A DNA stretch of 64,000 nucleotides, taken from Rhodothermales bacterium. Lineage in GTDB: Bacteria; Bacteroidota; Rhodothermia; Rhodothermales; UBA10348. The stretch spans positions 62,001 through 126,000 of the forward strand of contig JAEPNP010000005.1 in NCBI GenBank assembly GCA_017643395.1, read 5' to 3'. A program made the position numbers and the translations under genes. The notes under the pieces are model-generated. The model made no database searches. It saw only the letters and a program-made list of their open reading frames with translations, and was not told the origin of the DNA. This document shows, piece after piece, positions 653-25,665 of this stretch. Each line of letters starts with the position of its first letter. Within the stretch, counting starts at the first letter, position 1.

Positions 653-723
653 TTGCCCGAGAAGGACTCGAACCTTCACCGACGGCTCCAAAGGCCGCTG
701 TCCTGCCATTAGACGATCGGGCA
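653..723 (-). tRNA. tRNA-Gln (anticodon TTG)
   Basis: The reverse complement folds as a tRNA. The acceptor arms are TGCCCGA and TCGGGCA with discriminator A at 653. The anticodon stem is GCGGC/GCCGT around loop CTTTGGA, giving anticodon TTG (Gln, codon CAA). The T-arm contains GGTTCGAGTCC. No CCA is encoded. It precedes prs on the same strand. Confidence 0.93.
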
Positions 724-954: not shown

Positions 955-1036
955 GCGACCTGTCGCCCCGCACCACCGGCCCCGGGGCTGTGCTAGCCCG
1001 TGGCACCGCCGGCCCCGGGGCGCCCCGCCGGCAGAC

Positions 1037-1165
1037 GTGGAAAACCGACGCCACTTCCCACGTATCAGCTGGCGGCGCGGGACCAGGCGTGGAATAGTGG
1101 CACGGGTTTACACCTAAACCCCCTCGAAAAACGGCCAAACATGTAAAGAGGGGGGCGTTTTCCAT
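1037..1165 (+). repeat. 129-bp triple-dyad element, copy A1
   Basis: Three 25-bp imperfect dyads lie at 1037-1061, 1089-1113 and 1141-1165, each separated by exactly 27 bp. The outer ends are GTGGAAAAC and GTTTTCCAT. Compared with copy A2 it has a few substitutions. Orientation is assigned by the internal TTTACAC (1107-1113) and TGTAA (1142-1146) boxes. Function is unknown. Confidence 0.8.
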
Positions 1166-1265
1166 GATCGGGCCCTGCGCCGGCGGGATTCACGGCAGCT
1201 GGTTCGGCGACGCCGCCACGCCCCGGGCCCCGCGGCGGCGGCCCCGGGGCGCCCCGCCGGCAGAC

Positions 1266-1394
1266 GTGGAAAACCGACGCCACTTCCCACGTATCAGCTG
1301 GCGGCGCGGGACCAGGCGTGGAAAAGTGGTACGGGTTTACACCTCCACCCCCTCGGAAAACGGCCAAACATGTAAAGAGGGGGGCGTTTTCCAC
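1266..1394 (+). repeat. 129-bp triple-dyad element, copy A2
   Basis: The dyads lie at 1266-1290, 1318-1342 and 1370-1394 with 27-bp spacers. The outer ends GTGGAAAAC and GTTTTCCAC are a perfect 9-bp inverted repeat. Ungapped comparison by hand with the copy at 23940-24068 gives about 81 of 129 identical positions and no length difference. Function is unknown. Confidence 0.82.
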
Positions 1395-1547
1395 GATCGG
1401 GCCCCGCGGCGGCGGGATTCACGGCAGCTGGTTCGGCGACGCCGCCACGCCCCGGGCCCCGCGGCGGCGAGATTCACGGCAACTGGCTCCGCGACGCCCC
1501 CCAGCGCCACGAACCCAAGCACCGCCACACCCACCAAAGCGCGACCT

Positions 1548-2717
1548 TCACTCCCGCCCGTACTTCCTCAGCACCTCCCGCACGGCGTCGATATCGATCG
1601 CCTCCACCGTTCCGCGGTGCCCGGTCACCGTAGTCGCCTTGAACAACGCGTTCAGAATCGCCTCCTCCGCCGACTCTACGGCAGCCTGAAAGAGTGGGCT
1701 CATGCGGTCATTCGGCAGCATCGCCATTGCAGCCAGACCCGCGCGGCGCTCCGGCGTGCGACGCACCGATTCCGCCGTAGAAAAGGCCACTGCGTAGTCG
1801 CCGCTGCCGTTTGTTGCCGGGCTGCCTGTCCTGGCGATGGCCATTAACGCGCGCCGCGCCAGACGCTCCAGATTCCGGTCCGACAGCGGAGCATCAGTCG
1901 CCACCACGAGAATCACCGAGCCGTCCGCATCTCCGTTGTCCACCACGCTGCGCAAATAGTATTGCCCGAGCTCCTCACCGACAGGGACCCCATCGACCGA
2001 GAGAATGCCTCCATAGTTGGTTTGCGCGAGCACGCCGACGGTATAGCCACCCAGTCGCTCCGGCATCACGCGGGAGCTCGTCCCAATGCCCCCCTTCCAG
2101 CCGAAGCTGATGGTGCCTGTGCCGGCCCCGACTGAGCCCTCTTCCACCGGTCCGCTTTCGGCCGTGTCTATCGCCAACCCCACGTGCGCCGGAGTCACGA
2201 CGCGGGCCCGAATGTGGTTCAGGAATCCGTCATTGGTCTCCCCGACGACGGCATTCACACTACGCGCGCCCTCGTTGCCCGCCTGACGCAGCGTCCACTC
2301 CACGGCTCCGGCTGCGCCCTCCGGCACGGACAGCGTGTTGGTGAGAACGATGGGCGTCTCAATCTCCCCGAGCTCGACGATCTGGGTAGAGCCCGCGAAC
2401 TTGCCGAATGCATTGTGCGCTACGAAGCCCGCCGGCACCTTGTCTGCATACACGTTGCCGCCGTGTGGGCGGATGGCGGTCACACCGGTCCGCACCGAGT
2501 CTCCCTGCATCAAGGTGACGTGGCCAACAAGCACCCCATCCACGTCAGTAATGGCGTTCCAGAGCCCCGGAGCCAGCACCCCTGGGGCGACTCCGAGATC
2601 GCGCGCCCGCGGCCGCTCCTCGGCCGCCGAACGGGACCCGTTTTCCCACGAAACCGTTACCTGAGCCTGCGCGCACAGGGCTGTCGAGAGCAGGCAAGTC
2701 AGCACTAGTATTCTCAT
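1548..2717 (-). CDS. P1 family peptidase (DmpA-type aminopeptidase), secreted
   Basis: This 389-residue protein belongs to the DmpA/peptidase-family-S58 group, N-terminal-nucleophile aminopeptidases that cleave themselves to expose a serine. A signal peptide occupies about residues 1-18 (ending AQA). The family motifs ITDVDGVLVGH, VGAGTGT and the self-cleavage site DGSVILVVATDAPL are present, predicting cleavage between G266 and S267. The substrate is not predictable and is likely short peptides or D-amino-acid amides in the periplasm. The ATG at 2717-2715 gives a clean signal peptide. It is divergent from the racemase gene, with a 56-bp shared upstream region. Confidence 0.92.
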   Translation of the reverse strand: MRILVLTCLLSTALCAQAQVTVSWENGSRSAAEERPRARDLGVAPGVLAPGLWNAITDVDGVLVGHVTLMQGDSVRTGVTAIRPHGGNVYADKVPAGFVAHNAFGKFAGSTQIVELGEIETPIVLTNTLSVPEGAAGAVEWTLRQAGNEGARSVNAVVGETNDGFLNHIRARVVTPAHVGLAIDTAESGPVEEGSVGAGTGTISFGWKGGIGTSSRVMPERLGGYTVGVLAQTNYGGILSVDGVPVGEELGQYYLRSVVDNGDADGSVILVVATDAPLSDRNLERLARRALMAIARTGSPATNGSGDYAVAFSTAESVRRTPERRAGLAAMAMLPNDRMSPLFQAAVESAEEAILNALFKATTVTGHRGTVEAIDIDAVREVLRKYGRE

Positions 2718-10839: not shown

Positions 10840-12558
10840 ATGCGCTTCCTCCCGCTGTTCGCACTGCTCCTCGCCGGTTGTGCTGCCGGCCCGGGTCCCG
10901 ATCTCATCCTGTACAACGGCGACTTCTGGACGGGCAACCCGGATCAGCCGCACGCCACCGCCCTCGCCATTGATGAGGGATCCATTGTCGCGGTAGGCGA
11001 TGACGGTCTGGTGGAGATGGGCGGTTCCGACACTCGGGTGATTGACCTGGGTGGACGGTTCGCCGTGCCTGGGTTCAACGACACGCACGTGCACGCGCAG
11101 TCCGCCGCGCGCTTTCTGGAATTCAACGTCATGCAGGCCGGCAGTCAGGAGGAATTCCAGGAACGGGTCCAGGGCGTGGTCGATGGGCTTGCTGCCGGAG
11201 AGTGGATCCTGGGTGGCTTCTGGGGCGCCTATGACGACTGGGCCTCAGGCAGTGCGGGGGGCGACTCCAGGCAACGATTCACACCGGACATCGCAGCCGT
11301 GGAGACGCTCACGGCAGAGCACCCCATGTTTATCCGCCGCTTTGACAATTCTGAGTTTGCCGCGAATCGAGCCGCCCTGGACGCCGCCGGTATCGATGTC
11401 GAGAATCCTTCGGCACCGGGCGTGACTTTCGAAACCGACGCGAGCGGCCATGCGACAGGAATCATGACCGGATCGGGGGTGCGGGCGTTGTTTGCCGACG
11501 CCGTGCCTGACGGGTTTTCCCTGCAGCGGCGCATGGATCAGACCCGCAACGCGCTGCGGGTAGCCGCCTCATACGGGGTGACCAGTTTCAGCGACATGTC
11601 GGACGATGAGCAGCTCGAAATCTATCGGGCGCTCCGCGAGACCGACGAACTCTCGATGCGGGTTCATTTCCGCTATTTCCTGGGTCGCTGGCAGGAGCTG
11701 GCCGCGCAGGGCATCGAGGTCGGTCACGGCGACGAATGGATCCGGCTCGGTGCCCTCAAGGGCCACATAGACGGCATCATGGGAACGTCCAGCGCCCGGT
11801 TCTTTCAGCCGTACGAAAACCAGCCCGGCAACTACGGGCGGTGGCGTCAGCTCATGGTCGATGAGCAGGGGCAGTTTGTCGAAGGTCAATTCCTGGGGTA
11901 CATGGCGCGAGCGGACTCCGCGAATCTGCAGCTTTCGATCCATGCCATCGGCGATGAGGCCAACAGCCTGCTGATGGACTACCTGGAAGAGTTGAATCGA
12001 TTGAACGGCGATGCGGAGCGCCGCTTCCGGCTGGTGCACGCCCAGGTGATCGATCCGCGGGAGTTCGACCGGCTGGGCCGGCTCGGTGTGATCGCCGAGG
12101 TGCAGCCGTACCACCTGGCCGACGACATGCGCTGGATGGAGGAACGCATCGGCTACGAGCGCTCGAAGGGCGCCTACGCCTTCCGCTCACTGGATGAGGG
12201 TGGCGGCGTGCTGGCGTTCGGCTCGGACTGGCCGGGGACCTCGGCCAGCGAATACCCCATCAACCCCATCTATGGCCTCTACGCTGCGGTCACCCGGCAG
12301 ACCCTGGCCGGCACGCCGGAGGGAGGCTGGTTTCCCGAAGAGAAAATCGACCTGGAGACTGCGCTCCGGGCCTACACATGGGGCGGGGCGTATTCGACCT
12401 TCGAGGAAGACATCAAAGGCACCCTGGAAGAAGGCAAACTGGCCGATGTGGCCGTGCTCAGCGACGACCTGTTTGAGACGTCGGCCGAGGACTGGCTGGA
12501 GACCGATGTCGTGCTGACCGTCGTGGGCGGCAAGGTGGTGCACGACGAGCTGCGGTAG
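10840..12558 (+). CDS. YtcJ-like metal-dependent amidohydrolase, lipoprotein
   Basis: This 572-residue amidohydrolase is anchored as a lipoprotein: signal MRFLPLFALLLAGC with lipobox cysteine at residue 14. The metal-ligand motif is NDTHVHA, with later ligand segments HAIGDEAN and LVHAQVID and the terminal FGSDWPGTS, all as in the YtcJ/NfdA-like imidazolonepropionase-related group. It likely hydrolyses an N-acyl or formamide bond outside the cytoplasmic membrane; the substrate is unknown. I chose ATG 10840 because it gives the lipoprotein signal; an open frame from 10651 overlaps the lipase. Confidence 0.9.
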   Translation: MRFLPLFALLLAGCAAGPGPDLILYNGDFWTGNPDQPHATALAIDEGSIVAVGDDGLVEMGGSDTRVIDLGGRFAVPGFNDTHVHAQSAARFLEFNVMQAGSQEEFQERVQGVVDGLAAGEWILGGFWGAYDDWASGSAGGDSRQRFTPDIAAVETLTAEHPMFIRRFDNSEFAANRAALDAAGIDVENPSAPGVTFETDASGHATGIMTGSGVRALFADAVPDGFSLQRRMDQTRNALRVAASYGVTSFSDMSDDEQLEIYRALRETDELSMRVHFRYFLGRWQELAAQGIEVGHGDEWIRLGALKGHIDGIMGTSSARFFQPYENQPGNYGRWRQLMVDEQGQFVEGQFLGYMARADSANLQLSIHAIGDEANSLLMDYLEELNRLNGDAERRFRLVHAQVIDPREFDRLGRLGVIAEVQPYHLADDMRWMEERIGYERSKGAYAFRSLDEGGGVLAFGSDWPGTSASEYPINPIYGLYAAVTRQTLAGTPEGGWFPEEKIDLETALRAYTWGGAYSTFEEDIKGTLEEGKLADVAVLSDDLFETSAEDWLETDVVLTVVGGKVVHDELR

Positions 12559-12561
12559 CGG

Positions 12562-12905
12562 GGCGGCGGCGTGCGGTCTCAGCGGCGCGGCGGCGCGGCC
12601 CCGGCGGCGCAGTCTCAGCGGCGCGCGGGCTGCCAGGGGCGGAGTCCCAGCGGCGCGGCCCCGGCGGCGGCGCAGTCTCAGCGGCGCTCGGACTGCCGGG
12701 GGCGGAGTCCCAGCGGCGCGGCCCCGGCGGCGCGGCGGCGCAGTCTCAGCGGCGCGCGGGCTGTCGGGGGCGGAGTCCCAGTGGCGCGCGGGGTAGCATC
12801 GTGCGGCGCCGGGCTGCCGGGCGGGCGGAGTCCCAGCGGGATAGCAGCGTGCGGCGCCGGGCTGCCGGGCGGGCGGAGTCCCAGCGGCGCGCCGGACGGA
12901 CAGTC
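12562..12905. repeat. GC-rich minisatellite, left of element B
   Basis: Imperfect units of 63-68 bp carry the marker AGTCTCAGCGGCGC at 12611, 12674 and 12742. A second type of unit, 48 bp, starts GTGCGGCGCCGGGCTGCCGG at 12801 and 12849. A shared sub-motif GGCGGAGTCCCAG recurs in every unit. Confidence 0.85.
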
Positions 12906-12912
12906 AGCGTTA

Positions 12913-13041
12913 GTGGAATCGCACCCCGAGATTACACTACGCTGTGGCTCCGGCAAGGCCCCAAACGGAATGCGGCACCCATTTTACACTTAGGGCTGCC
13001 GTGGGCGGGCTCCCAAGTATAATCGGACCCCGATTTTCCAC
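12913..13041 (+). repeat. 129-bp triple-dyad element, copy B (diverged)
   Basis: The dyads lie at 12913-12937, 12965-12989 and 13017-13041 with 27-bp spacers. The first dyad has half-sites GTGGAATC and GATTACAC, and the third ends TTTTCCAC. The first and third dyads agree at 19 of 25 positions with each other. Overall identity to copies A2 and C is only about 43-46% by hand count, yet the total length and dyad spacing are identical. Function is unknown. Confidence 0.78.
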
Positions 13042-13049
13042 TCGCGCGG

Positions 13050-13310
13050 CCGAGGGCGCGCGGTCCCGTCGGCGCGGCGCGACCAGAGGCCACGGCCCTA
13101 CCCCGCGTTCCCGGAGGCGCGGCCCCGGCGGCGCGGCCCCGGCGGCGCGGCGCGACCAGAGGCACGGCCCTACCCAATGGCCCCGGCGGCGCGGTCCCAG
13201 CGGCAATGGCCTCAGCGGCGCAGCCCCGGCGGCACGTTCCCGGCGGCGCGGCCCCGGCGGCGCAACCGGCGGCGCAGCCCCGGCGGCACGTTCCCGGCAA
13301 CCCGACCACT
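13050..13310. repeat. GC-rich minisatellite, right of element B
   Basis: Duplicated segments include GGCGCGGCGCGACCAGAGGC (about 13073 and 13145) and GCAGCCCCGGCGGCACGTTC (about 13216 and 13272), interspersed with CCCCGGCGGCGCGG units. No gene is seen in it. Confidence 0.75.
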
Positions 13311-13575
13311 CCCCGCCGAGCCCCGACCACATACCCACCAAACCACTCAGGCGCTTCGAGAGAAGGCCGCCCGGAATCGCACCATGAGGCCTATCAGAAA
13401 GGAGACAAGACTGCCGACCCTCGCGAGTACAAGGTGTCGGTGATGGGTTTCTGTCGCCATGGGTTTGGGGGCGGCTGGTGCGTGATAATTGCCGACTCCA
13501 CAGCGCCTACTGTGAGGGTAAAGACGAGTTACGGTGTGGCCACCTGTCCGAGCAATGCCAACATTTTGACAGTCG

Positions 13576-21539: not shown

Positions 21540-22268
21540 TCAGTCGGCGCTGTAGGCGGTCAGCGAGTCCGATCCCAGGAAGCGCCCATCCGCATTCGTG
21601 TACCAGTGAATCGTGCGGACGAGTTGCATGCCGTCCGCAGCCAGCGTGCCGTCAAAGGCGATGTACTCTCCGTCATTGGCGGCCTCGTCGTGGTAGAACC
21701 TGCTTCCCACCAACGCAGAGGTCTCCGGGTGGAAATAGAAGTACCAAATGTCGGAGCCTACTGCCGGGTCATAGGTCACCCGCACCTGCCGGACCGGCTG
21801 ACCCATAAAGGTCGTGTCGATCACCCCGGGTTCGACCAGCGCGCCCTCGTCCTGTAGCTTCATCGGCAGGCCGTGCATGAAGGCGTAGTATTCGCGCCAC
21901 CATGCGGGGCCGTCGGGGCATACCAGTCTGTATCGGGCGGCCACTGTCGAGTCCGGGAGCACGCCATTCACCGTAGCGGCGCAGTTCTCCGCGTCGACAT
22001 AGGCTTCGACCACATCCTCTCCACGATCCTGTCGCATTCCGAATGACCGGGCCAGGGGATCCAGTCGCATGCCGGTCTTCCGCATCGACCCGTCGGGGCG
22101 CTTCTCATCCAGATCAAGACGGTGAGCACGCGTGTACCACATCCCGTCCGGATCGTGGAAGTCGATGCTGCGGGCAATGAGCGCCTCGGCATCAGAGAGT
22201 TCGGCCTGAGGCGGGTCGGCGGGCGCGCACGCTGCGACGAGCAGCGTCAACAGGAGCAGATTTCGCAT
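21540..22268 (-). CDS. DUF6503-like lipoprotein
   Basis: This 242-residue lipoprotein has signal MRNLLLLTLLVAAC with the lipobox Cys at residue 14. The body (SIDFHDPDGMWYTRAHRLDL, then PAWWREYYAFMHGLPMKLQD and GSDIWYFYFHPETSALVGSR) matches the pattern of DUF6503 beta-barrel lipoproteins of Bacteroidota, function unknown. I chose ATG 22268 for the signal peptide; an upstream frame to 22349 crosses into the divergent PKS promoter. It ends 2 bp from the M23 gene, converging. Confidence 0.78.
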   Translation of the reverse strand: MRNLLLLTLLVAACAPADPPQAELSDAEALIARSIDFHDPDGMWYTRAHRLDLDEKRPDGSMRKTGMRLDPLARSFGMRQDRGEDVVEAYVDAENCAATVNGVLPDSTVAARYRLVCPDGPAWWREYYAFMHGLPMKLQDEGALVEPGVIDTTFMGQPVRQVRVTYDPAVGSDIWYFYFHPETSALVGSRFYHDEAANDGEYIAFDGTLAADGMQLVRTIHWYTNADGRFLGSDSLTAYSAD

Positions 22269-22323
22269 GGCAATTGGCGGCGGAGTTCCGCAATATCGGC
22301 ACAGCCCGTCACTTGTCGCGCCC

Positions 22324-23460
22324 ATGGCCTTTATCCACAGCATCGCCACCCGCGTTCCGCGCCACGCCTATCCGCAGGAGGAAGTCGGTCAGGTGCTGCG
22401 CGCCGCGCTGGAGCCCGGGGGGCGCGGAGACCGGCTCTCGCAGAAGATCTACCGATCCTCGGGCATCGAAACCCGCCATTCCGTCATCAGCGGATACAAA
22501 CCGGGTACGGGCGATGGGCTCTTTTTCGATACGGATACGGGTCGATTCATGTCCCCGACCACCGGACAGCGCAACGACCTGTATGTGGCGGAGGCCAAGC
22601 CATTGTTTGTGGAGACGGCCAGGGTAGCCTTGGAAGCATCTGGGTTCGCGCCGGAAGAGATCACACACGTGGTGACCGCGTCCTGCACGGGATTTTTTGC
22701 TCCTGGTCCGGACTACTACATCCTGCGGGACCTGGGCTTGCCGCCGTCCACGCAGCGCTACCACGTAGGGTTCATGGGATGCTTTGCGGCATTTCCCAGC
22801 TTGCGCATGGCCGCATCGTTTTGCGCGAACGACCCAAACGCCGTGGTGCTGGTGGTCTGCCTGGAACTGTGCACGCTGCATCTGGAGCCTTCCGAGGTGG
22901 TGGACAACATCATCGCATCGGCCGTCTTTGCCGACGGCGCCGCGGGCGTGGTTGTTTCTTCCCAACCGCCGGCCGGGGTGGCGCTGGACGGTGCACTCGC
23001 GGGACCGCATCGGTGCGAGTCAGGCCTCGAACTCACCGCCTCCTCTACCCGGCTCGCGCCGAACTCCGAGGACGACATGGCCTGGAACATCGGCGACCAC
23101 GGGTTCGACATGGTGCTCTCCACCTATGTGCCCAGGGTGCTTGGCACCGAAATCGGAGGCGTCGTGGACGACATCTTGGGCGATGCGGGGCGCGGCCGCG
23201 AGGACGTCGTTCACTGGTGGGTGCACCCGGGTGGCCGGGCGATTATCGACCATGTCCAGGAGGCGTTGGCGCTGGAAGACATCTCGCTGGAGCCGTCGCG
23301 TGATGTGCTGGCGCGGTACGGCAACATGAGCAGCGCGACGATTCTGTTTGTGATACAGGAGGCGCTCCGGCGCGGGGACATGAGGACCGGTGAGCTTGCT
23401 TACGCAATGGCCTTCGGCCCCGGCCTGACCGTGGAGAGTGCCCTCTTCCGGGGCGTGTAG
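22324..23460 (+). CDS. Type III polyketide synthase (chalcone/stilbene synthase-like)
   Basis: This 378-residue homodimer-type enzyme extends an acyl-CoA with malonyl-CoA and cyclises it, usually to alkylresorcinols or alkylpyrones. The thiolase-fold catalytic triad is visible: C153 in GFMGCFAAFP, H301 in WWVHPGGRAI and N334 in RYGNMSSAT. The ATG at 22324 begins the conserved MAFIHSIATRVP. Its stop overlaps the methyltransferase GTG by one base, and a flavin monooxygenase follows. That layout matches lipid-resorcinol/quinone operons such as Streptomyces srsABC, although srsB is a different methyltransferase family. Confidence 0.94.
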   Translation: MAFIHSIATRVPRHAYPQEEVGQVLRAALEPGGRGDRLSQKIYRSSGIETRHSVISGYKPGTGDGLFFDTDTGRFMSPTTGQRNDLYVAEAKPLFVETARVALEASGFAPEEITHVVTASCTGFFAPGPDYYILRDLGLPPSTQRYHVGFMGCFAAFPSLRMAASFCANDPNAVVLVVCLELCTLHLEPSEVVDNIIASAVFADGAAGVVVSSQPPAGVALDGALAGPHRCESGLELTASSTRLAPNSEDDMAWNIGDHGFDMVLSTYVPRVLGTEIGGVVDDILGDAGRGREDVVHWWVHPGGRAIIDHVQEALALEDISLEPSRDVLARYGNMSSATILFVIQEALRRGDMRTGELAYAMAFGPGLTVESALFRGV

Positions 23461-24557
23461 TGCCGACCCTGATACTCAGGGACCGGCAGCCGGAACTGGT
23501 CGAGCTGATGGATGACCCGGCATGTGACGCTCGCATGCTGGCGCGCACGTACGCCAACTTCCGGGTGGTAAATCGACTTCTTGCAGGTTGGCGTGGTGTG
23601 TTTGCCCGGCACTTCGAAGCGCGCTTGCGTCAGGGACCCGCGACGCTACTCGATGTCGGGTGCGGCGGAGGGGACGTCGCGCGGTACCTGCACGCCCTGG
23701 CGGCGCGGCGGGGGTTCTCCCTTGCAATAACGGGCATTGACCCCGACCCGCGGGCGGTGGCGTTTGCGGTGGGGGGCGCTGCGGGGCACGGGGGTGCGGC
23801 GGGGCTCGGCGGTGCGGCGGGGCTCGGCGGCGGTGCGGGGCGTGGCGGCGCGGCGGGGCGTGGCGGCTCGGCGGGGCTCGGCGGTGCGGCGGGGCTCGGC
23901 GGCGCGGGAGGCGCCCCCCCGGGTCGATCCGACGCAAACATGGAAAAAGGCCATCTCTTTCCACAAGTCAGCTCCGACCGCGAATCCGAAGGTGGAAAAG
24001 TGGGCCCGAATTACACATTCGAAGGCTCCGAAACTGCGGAGACGTATAAAAACAGGGGCGTTTTCTACGATGGGCAGGGCGCGGGGGGCGCGCGAGGAGC
24101 CGACGGCCCGGTAAGCTCCGGCGGCTCGACGGACGCAGACGGCCCGACAGACGCAGGCGACACCCGCGCCACAGCGCCCCCTCCCCCCGCGGCAACCCTC
24201 CAGTTCCGCGCAGCCCACTCGTCAGACCTCGTCCGCGAGGGCCGGCGGTTCGACTTCGTCATCAGCAACCACGTGCTGCACCACCTCGACGCCGAAACGC
24301 GCGAGGTGCTTCTGCAGGATTCCCAGGCGCTGGCGACACACACCGCGGTTCACAACGACATTCGCCGGGACGACTTGGGCTACCTGGGGTTTTCCGTGTT
24401 CGGGCTGGCCTTCCCCGGATCGTTCATTCGAACGGACGGCCTGCGCTCCATTCGTCGGAGCTACACTCCCGCCGAGCTGGCCGCGGTGCTGCCGGCGGGC
24501 TGGCGGGCGGAGCCCGCCTGGCCGTTCCGGCTCCTGGCAGTGTGGCGACATGATTGA
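23460..24557 (+). CDS. SAM-dependent methyltransferase interrupted in frame by a repeat element
   Basis: A class I methyltransferase, probably methylating the product of the adjacent polyketide synthase. Motif I LLDVGCGGGDVARYL is at residues 63-77 and the acidic loop GIDPDP at 92-97. The domain resumes at about 247 with LQFRAAHSSDLVREG and VISNHVLHHLD. Between them lie about 143 foreign residues: eight glycine-rich 6-residue repeats (105-152), a 43-codon segment that is exactly a 129-bp triple-dyad element (161-203), and a low-complexity tail. Without the insert it would be about 222 residues, near the usual size. The frame stays open with no stop. Whether the enzyme still folds is unknown. 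The start is GTG, overlapping the PKS stop. Confidence 0.85.
   Translation: MPTLILRDRQPELVELMDDPACDARMLARTYANFRVVNRLLAGWRGVFARHFEARLRQGPATLLDVGCGGGDVARYLHALAARRGFSLAITGIDPDPRAVAFAVGGAAGHGGAAGLGGAAGLGGGAGRGGAAGRGGSAGLGGAAGLGGAGGAPPGRSDANMEKGHLFPQVSSDRESEGGKVGPNYTFEGSETAETYKNRGVFYDGQGAGGARGADGPVSSGGSTDADGPTDAGDTRATAPPPPAATLQFRAAHSSDLVREGRRFDFVISNHVLHHLDAETREVLLQDSQALATHTAVHNDIRRDDLGYLGFSVFGLAFPGSFIRTDGLRSIRRSYTPAELAAVLPAGWRAEPAWPFRLLAVWRHD
23772..23915 (+). repeat. In-gene minisatellite, 8 x 18 bp
   Basis: Eight 18-bp units encode GGAAGH, GGAAGL, GGAAGL, GGGAGR, GGAAGR, GGSAGL, GGAAGL and GGAGGA. The best-conserved unit is GGCGGTGCGGCGGGGCTC. It lies just before the in-gene 129-bp element. Confidence 0.92.
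23940..24068 (+). repeat. 129-bp triple-dyad element, copy C, inside the methyltransferase gene
   Basis: The dyads lie at 23940-23964, 23992-24016 and 24044-24068 with 27-bp spacers. Ends are ATGGAAAAA and GTTTTCTAC. The first base is a first codon position and 129 is divisible by three, so the host frame is preserved. It is about 63% identical to copy A2 with no indel by hand count. Confidence 0.85.
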
Positions 24558-25665
24558 CGTGGCGATTGTCGGGGGTGGTCCTGTAGGCCTGGACCTGGCG
24601 AACCGCCTGGTCCAGGCCCACAGGACCGTGCGCGTGCTGGAGAAGCGAGCCGCCATCGGCACGCACTCCCGATCCATCGGCATTCATCCGCCCAGCCTGG
24701 AGATGCTGCGCGAGACGGGAGTCACCGACGAGCTGCTGGCGCGCGGCGTGCACATCCGGGAGGGCATCGCCTACGTGTCAGGCCGGGAAGCGGGCCGCAT
24801 CGACATGAGGTTGCTGCCTCCTCCCTTTCCGTTCGTGCTGGCCATCCCGCAGTACGTCACCGAGCAGGTCCTGCAAGACCGGCTGCCTGCCGAGTGCATC
24901 ACGCGCGGCGTGGAGGTGACCGCACTGACCCAGCATCAGGATCGGGTGGTCCTGCAAACTCCTGACGGACCAGTCGCCGCCCGGTTTGTGGTGGGTGCCG
25001 ACGGACAGCATTCGACCGTGCGCACCCTGCTGGGTATCCCGTTCCGTGGAGGCGCCTACCGGGACCGATATCTCATGGGCGACTTCTCGGACACCACGGA
25101 TTTTGGTGAGCGTGCCGCCATCTTCCTGGACCCAGACGGGCTAACCGAGGCTTTTCCCCTACCCGGCAAGATCCGGCGGTGGGTGGTGCGCTTGCAGGAC
25201 CGTGACGACGCAGAAGCCGACGTTCACCGCCTCATCCATCTGGTACGACAGCGCACCGACCACCGACCGGACCCCGCCACCAACACCATGCTGTCCGCCT
25301 TCCGGGTCTACCGCCTGCTCGCTGAGCGGCTGAACCACGGCCGCGTGATCCTGGCCGGAGACGCCGCACACGTAGTCAGCCCCATCGGCGGCCAGGGCAT
25401 GAACGTCGGCTGGCTGGACGGCCGGCACGCCGCCGGAATCCTGCAGCAAGCCCTGGACGGCGCCGACCACCGGCCTTTGTTCGAGGCCTACACCCGCCGT
25501 CGCCGCCGCACCGCGCGGCAAGCCGCGCGGCGCGCCGAGTTCAACATGGCCTTCGGCCGCCCCGGACCGCTGGCGCCCTTCATGCGAGCGGGGGCCAGAG
25601 CGATCCTCTGGCCCCCGCTCGCACGCCTGGCCGTGCAGCGCTTCACCATGCGCGGACTTACTTGA
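24550..25665 (+). CDS. FAD-dependent monooxygenase
   Basis: This 371-residue flavoprotein of the aromatic hydroxylase class has the FAD dinucleotide-binding motif VAIVGGGPVGLDLANRL (4-20), the DG-type motif VGADGQHSTVR and the GDAAHVVSPIGGQGMN motif that binds the FAD ribityl chain. It overlaps the methyltransferase by 8 bp in a three-gene operon with the type III PKS, so it probably hydroxylates the polyketide-derived ring toward a quinone. That role is inferred from context. Its 3' end overlaps the convergent BNR-repeat gene by 8 bp. Confidence 0.92.
   Translation: MIDVAIVGGGPVGLDLANRLVQAHRTVRVLEKRAAIGTHSRSIGIHPPSLEMLRETGVTDELLARGVHIREGIAYVSGREAGRIDMRLLPPPFPFVLAIPQYVTEQVLQDRLPAECITRGVEVTALTQHQDRVVLQTPDGPVAARFVVGADGQHSTVRTLLGIPFRGGAYRDRYLMGDFSDTTDFGERAAIFLDPDGLTEAFPLPGKIRRWVVRLQDRDDAEADVHRLIHLVRQRTDHRPDPATNTMLSAFRVYRLLAERLNHGRVILAGDAAHVVSPIGGQGMNVGWLDGRHAAGILQQALDGADHRPLFEAYTRRRRRTARQAARRAEFNMAFGRPGPLAPFMRAGARAILWPPLARLAVQRFTMRGLT

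Follow-up and report, generated by a model that had tools for sequence, protein, structure and literature searches.

We analyzed a window of 64,000 nucleotides from the draft genome of a Rhodothermales bacterium (the host, G000). It contains four copies of an array of three palindromes, or dyads, which are listed in Table 1 with the features around them. A sequence-only reading of this DNA had described all four; our dyad scan found each where it had been placed, with a length of exactly 129 bp and the proposed layout of 25-bp dyads, throughout, separated by 27-bp spacers. Under a simple dyad score, the four copies reach 35.5-38.5. The top window position that does not overlap any copy scores 14, and the maximum in five simulated sequences with the window's dinucleotide make-up is 15.5. 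A BLAST-type search with copy 2 convincingly matched only copies 1 and 2, and copy 4 was hit at E = 3.3.

Table 1. Arrays and associated features in the window, numbered from its first nucleotide
Feature	Position	Strand	Description	Scores
Array copy 1	1037..1165		dyads 1037-1061, 1089-1113, 1141-1165	dyad scan 36.5; matrix 69.5
Array copy 2	1266..1394		dyads 1266-1290, 1318-1342, 1370-1394; tandem twin of copy 1	dyad scan 37.0; matrix 68.6
Array copy 3	12913..13041		dyads 12913-12937, 12965-12989, 13017-13041	dyad scan 35.5; matrix 65.3
Array copy 4	23940..24068		dyads 23940-23964, 23992-24016, 24044-24068; open frame runs through	dyad scan 38.5; matrix 70.8
229-bp tandem duplication with copies 1 and 2	1007..1464		direct repeat 1007-1235 / 1236-1464, 96% identical	
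In-frame insertion with copy 4 and GC-rich flanks	23769..24197	+	about residues 104-246 (limits approximate); unmatched in relatives	
tRNA gene	653..723	-	flanks copies 1 and 2 on one side; orthologous gap used as empty-site test	
Peptidase S58 gene	1548-2717		flanks copies 1 and 2 on the side opposite the tRNA gene	

Copies 1 and 2 share 0.95 of their positions. They belong to a single tandem duplication, so the window has three independent copies rather than four. The remaining pairs are 0.43-0.63 identical, which agrees with the earlier estimate of 43-63%. Copy 3 lies in a GC-rich gap (12559-13575, G+C 0.74) between convergent predicted genes. A further correction for this dispersed element is that copy 4 sits within a protein-coding methyltransferase gene and is read in frame. 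That gene is the middle one of three consecutive genes (22267-25665) that match the type III polyketide (chalcone) synthase, methyltransferase, and FAD-binding oxidoreductase families.

The sequence-only reading had proposed a genome-wide search for further copies and a control with shuffled DNA. We built a sequence-only covariance model from the four window copies and searched the window's own genome, which gave at least 195 matches at E up to 10 (150 of 1,864 candidates were scored). For an unbiased sample, we used C1:1-400000 plus the window (464 kb). In this sample, a weight matrix allowing a spacing of 51-53 bp picked out 18 triples; the same matrix found none in three order-3 Markov shuffles per sequence and none at five off-period spacings. 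Neither of the outcomes named beforehand as refuting the element, a lack of further copies or matches of equal quality in shuffled DNA, was seen. A looser chain search of the 464 kb found 20 chains, comprising 16 arrays of the main class, spread over 10 places and all with exactly three dyads, and four chains of a second class. Scaling by proportion, we estimate about 155 main-class arrays in the host genome; the dispersed copies would number on the order of a hundred.

Across all of the loci that we examined, there are 91 distinct arrays at 67 places. Three dyads are present in 82 of these, four in 4, five in 3, and two in 2, in a set that is biased toward three dyads by the search model, which itself has three. 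To compare layouts, we used 63 non-redundant three-dyad arrays with under 70% mutual identity (mean 46%), from which the second-class array L055:288 had been removed by hand. The prevailing layout is 25-27-(24 or 25)-27-25. The outer dyads are 25 bp in 62/63 and 61/63 arrays, and both spacers are 27 bp in 50/63, while the middle dyad takes two lengths, 24 bp (32 arrays) and 25 bp (31). Mainly because of this difference in the middle dyad, the total length varies: it is 128 bp in 30 arrays, 129 bp in 25, 130 bp in 6, and 131 bp and 127 bp in one each. Thus, the statement that no indel has occurred holds inside the window and fails genome-wide, where lengths run from 127 to 131 bp. The broader claim of constrained spacing stands, with a 1-bp tolerance that falls mostly in the middle dyad. 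The period was also said to be close to five helical turns, and 52 bp is 4.95 turns at 10.5 bp per turn.

Host arrays lie in GC-rich islands. Six array-bearing gaps of over 600 bp have a G+C of 0.71-0.74, as compared to 0.57-0.66 in 14 gaps without arrays, and the mean G+C directly beside host arrays is about 0.75. Satellite-like GC-rich tandem repeats with several periods also occur around host arrays, at 12557-13298 and 23775-23907 of the window.

The four second-class chains correspond to three arrays, of 3, 4, and 7 units, with AGGTT..AACCT arms and a period of 51-52 bp. These are L052:12367-12547 (C1:172367), L049:1544-1875 (C1:101544), and L055:288-415 (C1:220288), and the similarity among their units extends over all 52 bp.

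In the main class, each array consists of six half-sites, A-N-[G/A]TG[G/T]AA[T/A], which form the three palindromes at a 52-bp pitch. The dyads are real, and their arms, which had been described as inverted repeats, are half-sites of this form instead of strict inverted repeats. The A that lies two bases ahead of [G/A]TG[G/T]AA[T/A] is present in 62-72% of cases, depending on the column. Conservation extends no more than about 8 bp beyond the outer dyads of host arrays. The half-sites also differ by place in the array: A at position 1 is found in 37/126 outer half-sites and 31/252 others; T at position 4 in 15/126 outer half-sites and 59/252 others; and C at position 3 in 19/126 middle half-sites and 7/252 others. 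These preferences are two-fold symmetric about the middle palindrome, which is 24 or 25 bp.

The centers of the dyads differ with dyad length. A central run of at least four G or C occurs in 61% of the 154 25-bp dyads, as compared to 31% in column shuffles. In the 33 24-bp dyads, there is no clear excess (39% versus 33% in shuffles).

Are the two arms of a dyad matched to each other, as the hairpins of a structured RNA would be? In 22 aligned arrays, 71% of the paired cells are complementary, as compared to 36-50% when the partners are slid by 1-3 columns, but any palindrome would give this result. Against shuffled arrays, both measures fall below the mean: 71.0% of cells pair versus 73.7% in shuffles, with 496 of 500 shuffles reaching the observed value, and the covariation score is 0.118 versus 0.151, with 492 of 500 shuffles reaching it. 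At arm position 4, the arms vary independently: the combinations GA and TC are frequent (38 and 25 of 189 dyads), and TA is infrequent (4). Position 3 departs from this, since its arms pair slightly more than in shuffles (z = 2.6). Because there is no overall covariation between arms, RNA hairpins are unsupported. The inverted arms do fit a structured RNA with three hairpins, but the two-fold symmetry of the preferences does not, and Rfam models match nothing in the window except a tRNA. We consider this option, which the sequence-only reading had raised, to be extremely improbable.

Whole arrays duplicate locally. We compared 16 pairs of local duplicates (from 15 groups) of equal length and 72-99% identity; pairs of unequal length were left out. 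The core arm bases (T2, G3, A5, and A6) differ at just 7 of 384 positions (1.8%), while the spacers differ at 109 of 795 (13.7%; p = 1e-12). The degenerate arm bases differ at 16/288 positions and the centers at 38/528. Because the core differs so much less than the spacers do, the core bases appear to be under selection in place. The -2 base is conserved across loci, so its 12 differences at 64 positions between duplicates are contrary to expectation. The arrays were found with a matrix that favors intact arms, which might bias the comparison of core to spacer. A BLAST search for missed copies returned 11 rows: two for one full-length copy beside L007, four for the second-class array in L049, and five that were partial. 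Few decayed copies thus exist, although a small bias is left.

The units of one array are also related to each other. Spacer similarity is 0.467 inside one array versus 0.352 between arrays, and center similarity is 0.584 versus 0.413. Because both are more alike within arrays than between them, the units of an array probably all derive from a single 52-bp monomer at that place.

To examine the distribution of the element, we used a model from 22 arrays, with strict filters and a single sequence class, so that other classes could be missed. It matched the host, two congeners (G001 and G002), and G010 from another genus; there was no match to the other 56 genomes of one run or to the other 240 genomes from the class in another. 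In G001, G002, and G010, we read the layout directly in the sequence. The arrays in G010 have 2-6 units at 51-52 bp, so three dyads is not universal. In L246:553-837 and L253:692-872, both from G010, six and four units, respectively, with GTTGAAT-like arms repeat at exactly 52 bp. A search for arrays of any class found none in 100-kb samples of G004, G011, and G015, but this is weak evidence, since sampling 200 kb of G010, which is a carrier, likewise turned up nothing. Similar samples of G028, G036, and G032 gave 3, 1, and 1 matches, which were AT-rich or simple repeats and were about as many as at control periods. In 683 kb from 80 loci around homologs of peptidase S58, there was no matrix match, and the two class-free matches were AT-rich. 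A literature search, mainly outside subscription journals, found no title that describes such an element. One lead, PMC3119063, concerns archaeal elements that are unrelated.

At the orthologous sites that we could compare, sister species lack the array. In the gap between the tRNA and peptidase S58 genes, which holds copies 1 and 2, both congeners have short array-free spacers. In G010, the same gap contains three units of another class at a 52-bp period, and after them a single main-class dyad. (This third class, TTGTGCACT..AGTGCACAA, is at L144:494-622, or G010:C47.) The array at C1:9729 is absent from the orthologous spacers of G001, G002, and G010. For copy 4, about residues 104-246 of the methyltransferase are unmatched in all 15 of the same-family genomes that match both halves, and the halves are 15-93 bp apart there; neither G001 nor G002 has a match to this gene. 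In G002, the gene beside copy 3 is present, and the 2.3 kb examined past it has no array; the stretch with copy 3 and its adjoining gene is missing from G001. In the opposite direction, the G001 array L155:5631-5758 has no counterpart in the matching region of G000, but the regions are not collinear there. Four G010 arrays that we examined are in gaps of 286-643 bp. By these comparisons, which cover few sites, array positions turn over between species. The role of the array would then be independent of position, as far as the few testable sites can indicate.

Such turnover bears on the idea that the arrays are operators of one regulon, with each array controlling the adjacent promoter via cooperative binding of a repressor or activator. 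Palindromic operators do have independent half-sites, and pseudopalindromes with G-tracts are known as CsoR operators (PMC3902906). But the orthologous gaps that we tested lack arrays, and copy 4 is inside a gene. Also, among the nine array-bearing intergenic gaps in the 464 kb, the predicted genes are co-directed in four, convergent in three, and divergent in two. We think that a regulon of this kind is quite improbable.

Sites that have an array in the host but none in relatives, as well as the insertion of copy 4 inside a gene and the restriction to two genera, fit a selfish, MITE-like repeat. The array would then be the recognition part of a non-autonomous element that spreads itself and is moved by a recombinase encoded elsewhere. 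In two relatives, arrays do lie within transposon-like repeats. In G001, a unit of ~250-330 bp that ends at an array occurs five times, with 84-97% identity. Its left end is CAGTCTGTCGGACT after CTAG in all four of the left ends seen, and its right end is two or three array units and then, in 4/5 copies, CTAG. A piece within this unit reads like what we take to be the start of an IS1182-type transposase. The G001 loci with the unit are L150, L153, L156, L157, and L158; at L158, a further IS1182-like left end comes right after the array's CTAG. G010 has six copies of a ~300-630-bp element with an array, shortened in some of them, and terminal inverted repeats (16-bp-type) like GGGCGTGTTCACACTC / GAGTGTGAACACGCCC. 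It includes a fragment similar to an hxlR gene. These copies are at L235-L239 and L161, and L240 looks like a source locus without those ends.

The G001 and G010 carrier elements have no relation to one another, which makes the arrays look like passengers in both. In the host, there is no conserved boundary or target duplication around the arrays, and a dead copy would not need to keep its core bases intact in place after local duplication. We also searched for four families of recombinases and transposases. Serine resolvase (PF00239) has no match in any of the four carriers (G000, G001, G002, or G010), whereas three of the eight non-carriers examined have one. The other three families have no match in G000, G002, or G010: Y1 (RAYT) transposase (PF01797), with three matches in G001; IS110-type (PF02371), with two in G001; and IS1182-type (PF05598), with one in G001 that has no array nearby. 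IS110-like (Piv-type) recombinases are associated with the dRS3 target, and a phage-encoded enzyme of this type elsewhere is possible. Tyrosine recombinases and other DDE families lie outside this search, and since these are draft genomes (host completeness is 98.43%), the absences are not absolute. Overall, the suggestion of a small mobile repeat holds for the empty sites and for the repeats in two relatives, but not for the host, which shows neither an element boundary nor any of the four families. We consider a selfish repeat to be unlikely.

The lack of PF00239 in the four carriers also counts against site-specific recombination sites like the res of Tn3. Three dimer-type dyads in about 130 bp are reminiscent of res, which also has three dimer-binding sites, but the equal 52-bp spacing is unlike that of res. 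We view this explanation as very improbable.

Instead, the pattern points to an undescribed protein-binding site that is used across the chromosome. Of the options in the sequence-only reading, the multi-site protein-binding array is the one that these sequences support, given the lack of overall arm covariation, the independent half-sites, the pitch of about five turns, and the conservation of the core in place. We propose that the element is probably, but by no means certainly, a multivalent DNA-binding array whose ligand is a dimeric protein and whose role does not depend on position. On this proposal, three dimers of a single sequence-specific protein would sit on the same face of the DNA and form a complex with two-fold symmetry. 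Runs of G tend toward an A-like geometry, in which each turn takes more base pairs. We suggest that, in 25-bp dyads, the protein reads the central G- or C-run as a slightly unwound helix of A-like form. The run would cost one extra base pair, and its absence would account for dyads that are 1 bp shorter. Function would depend on having arrays and not on where they are, as expected for chromosome organization or for titration of a regulator.

Several observations weigh against a binding array. First, no binding protein was found: we clustered 335 predicted neighbor proteins and identified no recurring candidate. Many of the clusters represent one locus repeated, and the largest spans about six distinct loci. 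Second, repeated elements carry the arrays in two relatives, which fits the selfish explanation. The differences at the -2 base between duplicates, the slight excess of pairing at arm position 3, and the range of 2-6 units in G010 also count against it.

A more specific form of the binding-array proposal is possible rather than probable. The array might be a new type of bacterial chromosome-architecture site, namely a two-fold symmetric anchor for three dimers, present at about one place per 45 kb, whose number is under selection even as its positions turn over. The recognition classes GTGGAAT, AGGTT/GTTGAAT, and TTGTGCACT share the 52-bp pitch, as if paralogous binding proteins share a geometry. 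If the array does anchor a chromosome-wide protein, then it offers a defined bait for a nucleoid or regulatory protein of bacteria that have been little studied. It would also be a natural example of apparent selection on how many sites there are, and not on where they lie.

Among known systems, the REP and BIME elements are high-copy extragenic palindromes that are often clustered and have been proposed to bind proteins; PMC2817692 describes BIME spacers as variable in length and REPs as keeping their complementarity. The host arrays are likewise palindromes in high copy, but they have a fixed pitch, no match to a Y1 transposase in the host, and arms that are not kept by complementary changes. 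Well-known dispersed palindromes of this kind, such as REPs, are ascribed to the action of transposases on hairpins. The present element retains a precise DNA geometry, together with bases that probably contact protein, at places not shared by sister species. For Tn3/gamma-delta, res has three dimer-binding sites in 114 bp (PMC9943657). There is one such res per transposon. The dyad count and length (three in ~114-130 bp) do fit, but no carrier matches a serine resolvase. The end of an IS1182 element would be consistent with the five G001 units that end at an array, but not with the host's lack of PF05598 or with the G001 match, which has no array nearby. As for MITEs, host arrays have no conserved terminal repeats around them, and in G010 an element with such ends contains the array. 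In a cluster of DnaA boxes, the half-sites should match the box, but TTWTNCACA was found in 7/378, TTATCCACA in 0/378, and A as the ninth base in 79/378. A CRISPR array does not fit either: the dyads vary inside one array, and the spacers of one array resemble each other. Each of the REP/BIME, res, IS110-target, IS1182-end, DnaA-box, and RNA explanations fails a feature that we tested.

Two systems come closer. The neisserial dRS3/NIME repeats are based on the 20-bp dRS3 (ATTCCC-N8-GGGAAT), with RS repeats of 30-160 bp between, about 700 copies, and a role as an integrase target (PMC3898611). They resemble our element as an abundant dispersed palindrome with fixed arms, a variable center, and intergenic arrays, but the accessible part of that account gives no fixed three-site 52-bp pitch, and PF02371 has no match in the host. 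In CsoR-type operators, an inverted repeat surrounds a G-tract that is read as A-like DNA, with TAC/GTA arms (TACT/AGTA in RcnR), and these are operators at promoters (PMC3902906). The likeness is the G-tract flanked by inverted repeats, which we see in most of the 25-bp dyad centers; the differences are the arms, which are of the GTGGAAT type here, and the dispersed triple arrays. By analogy, the CsoR-type G-tract palindrome is the nearest mechanical counterpart of a single dyad, and dRS3 the nearest genomic counterpart of the element.
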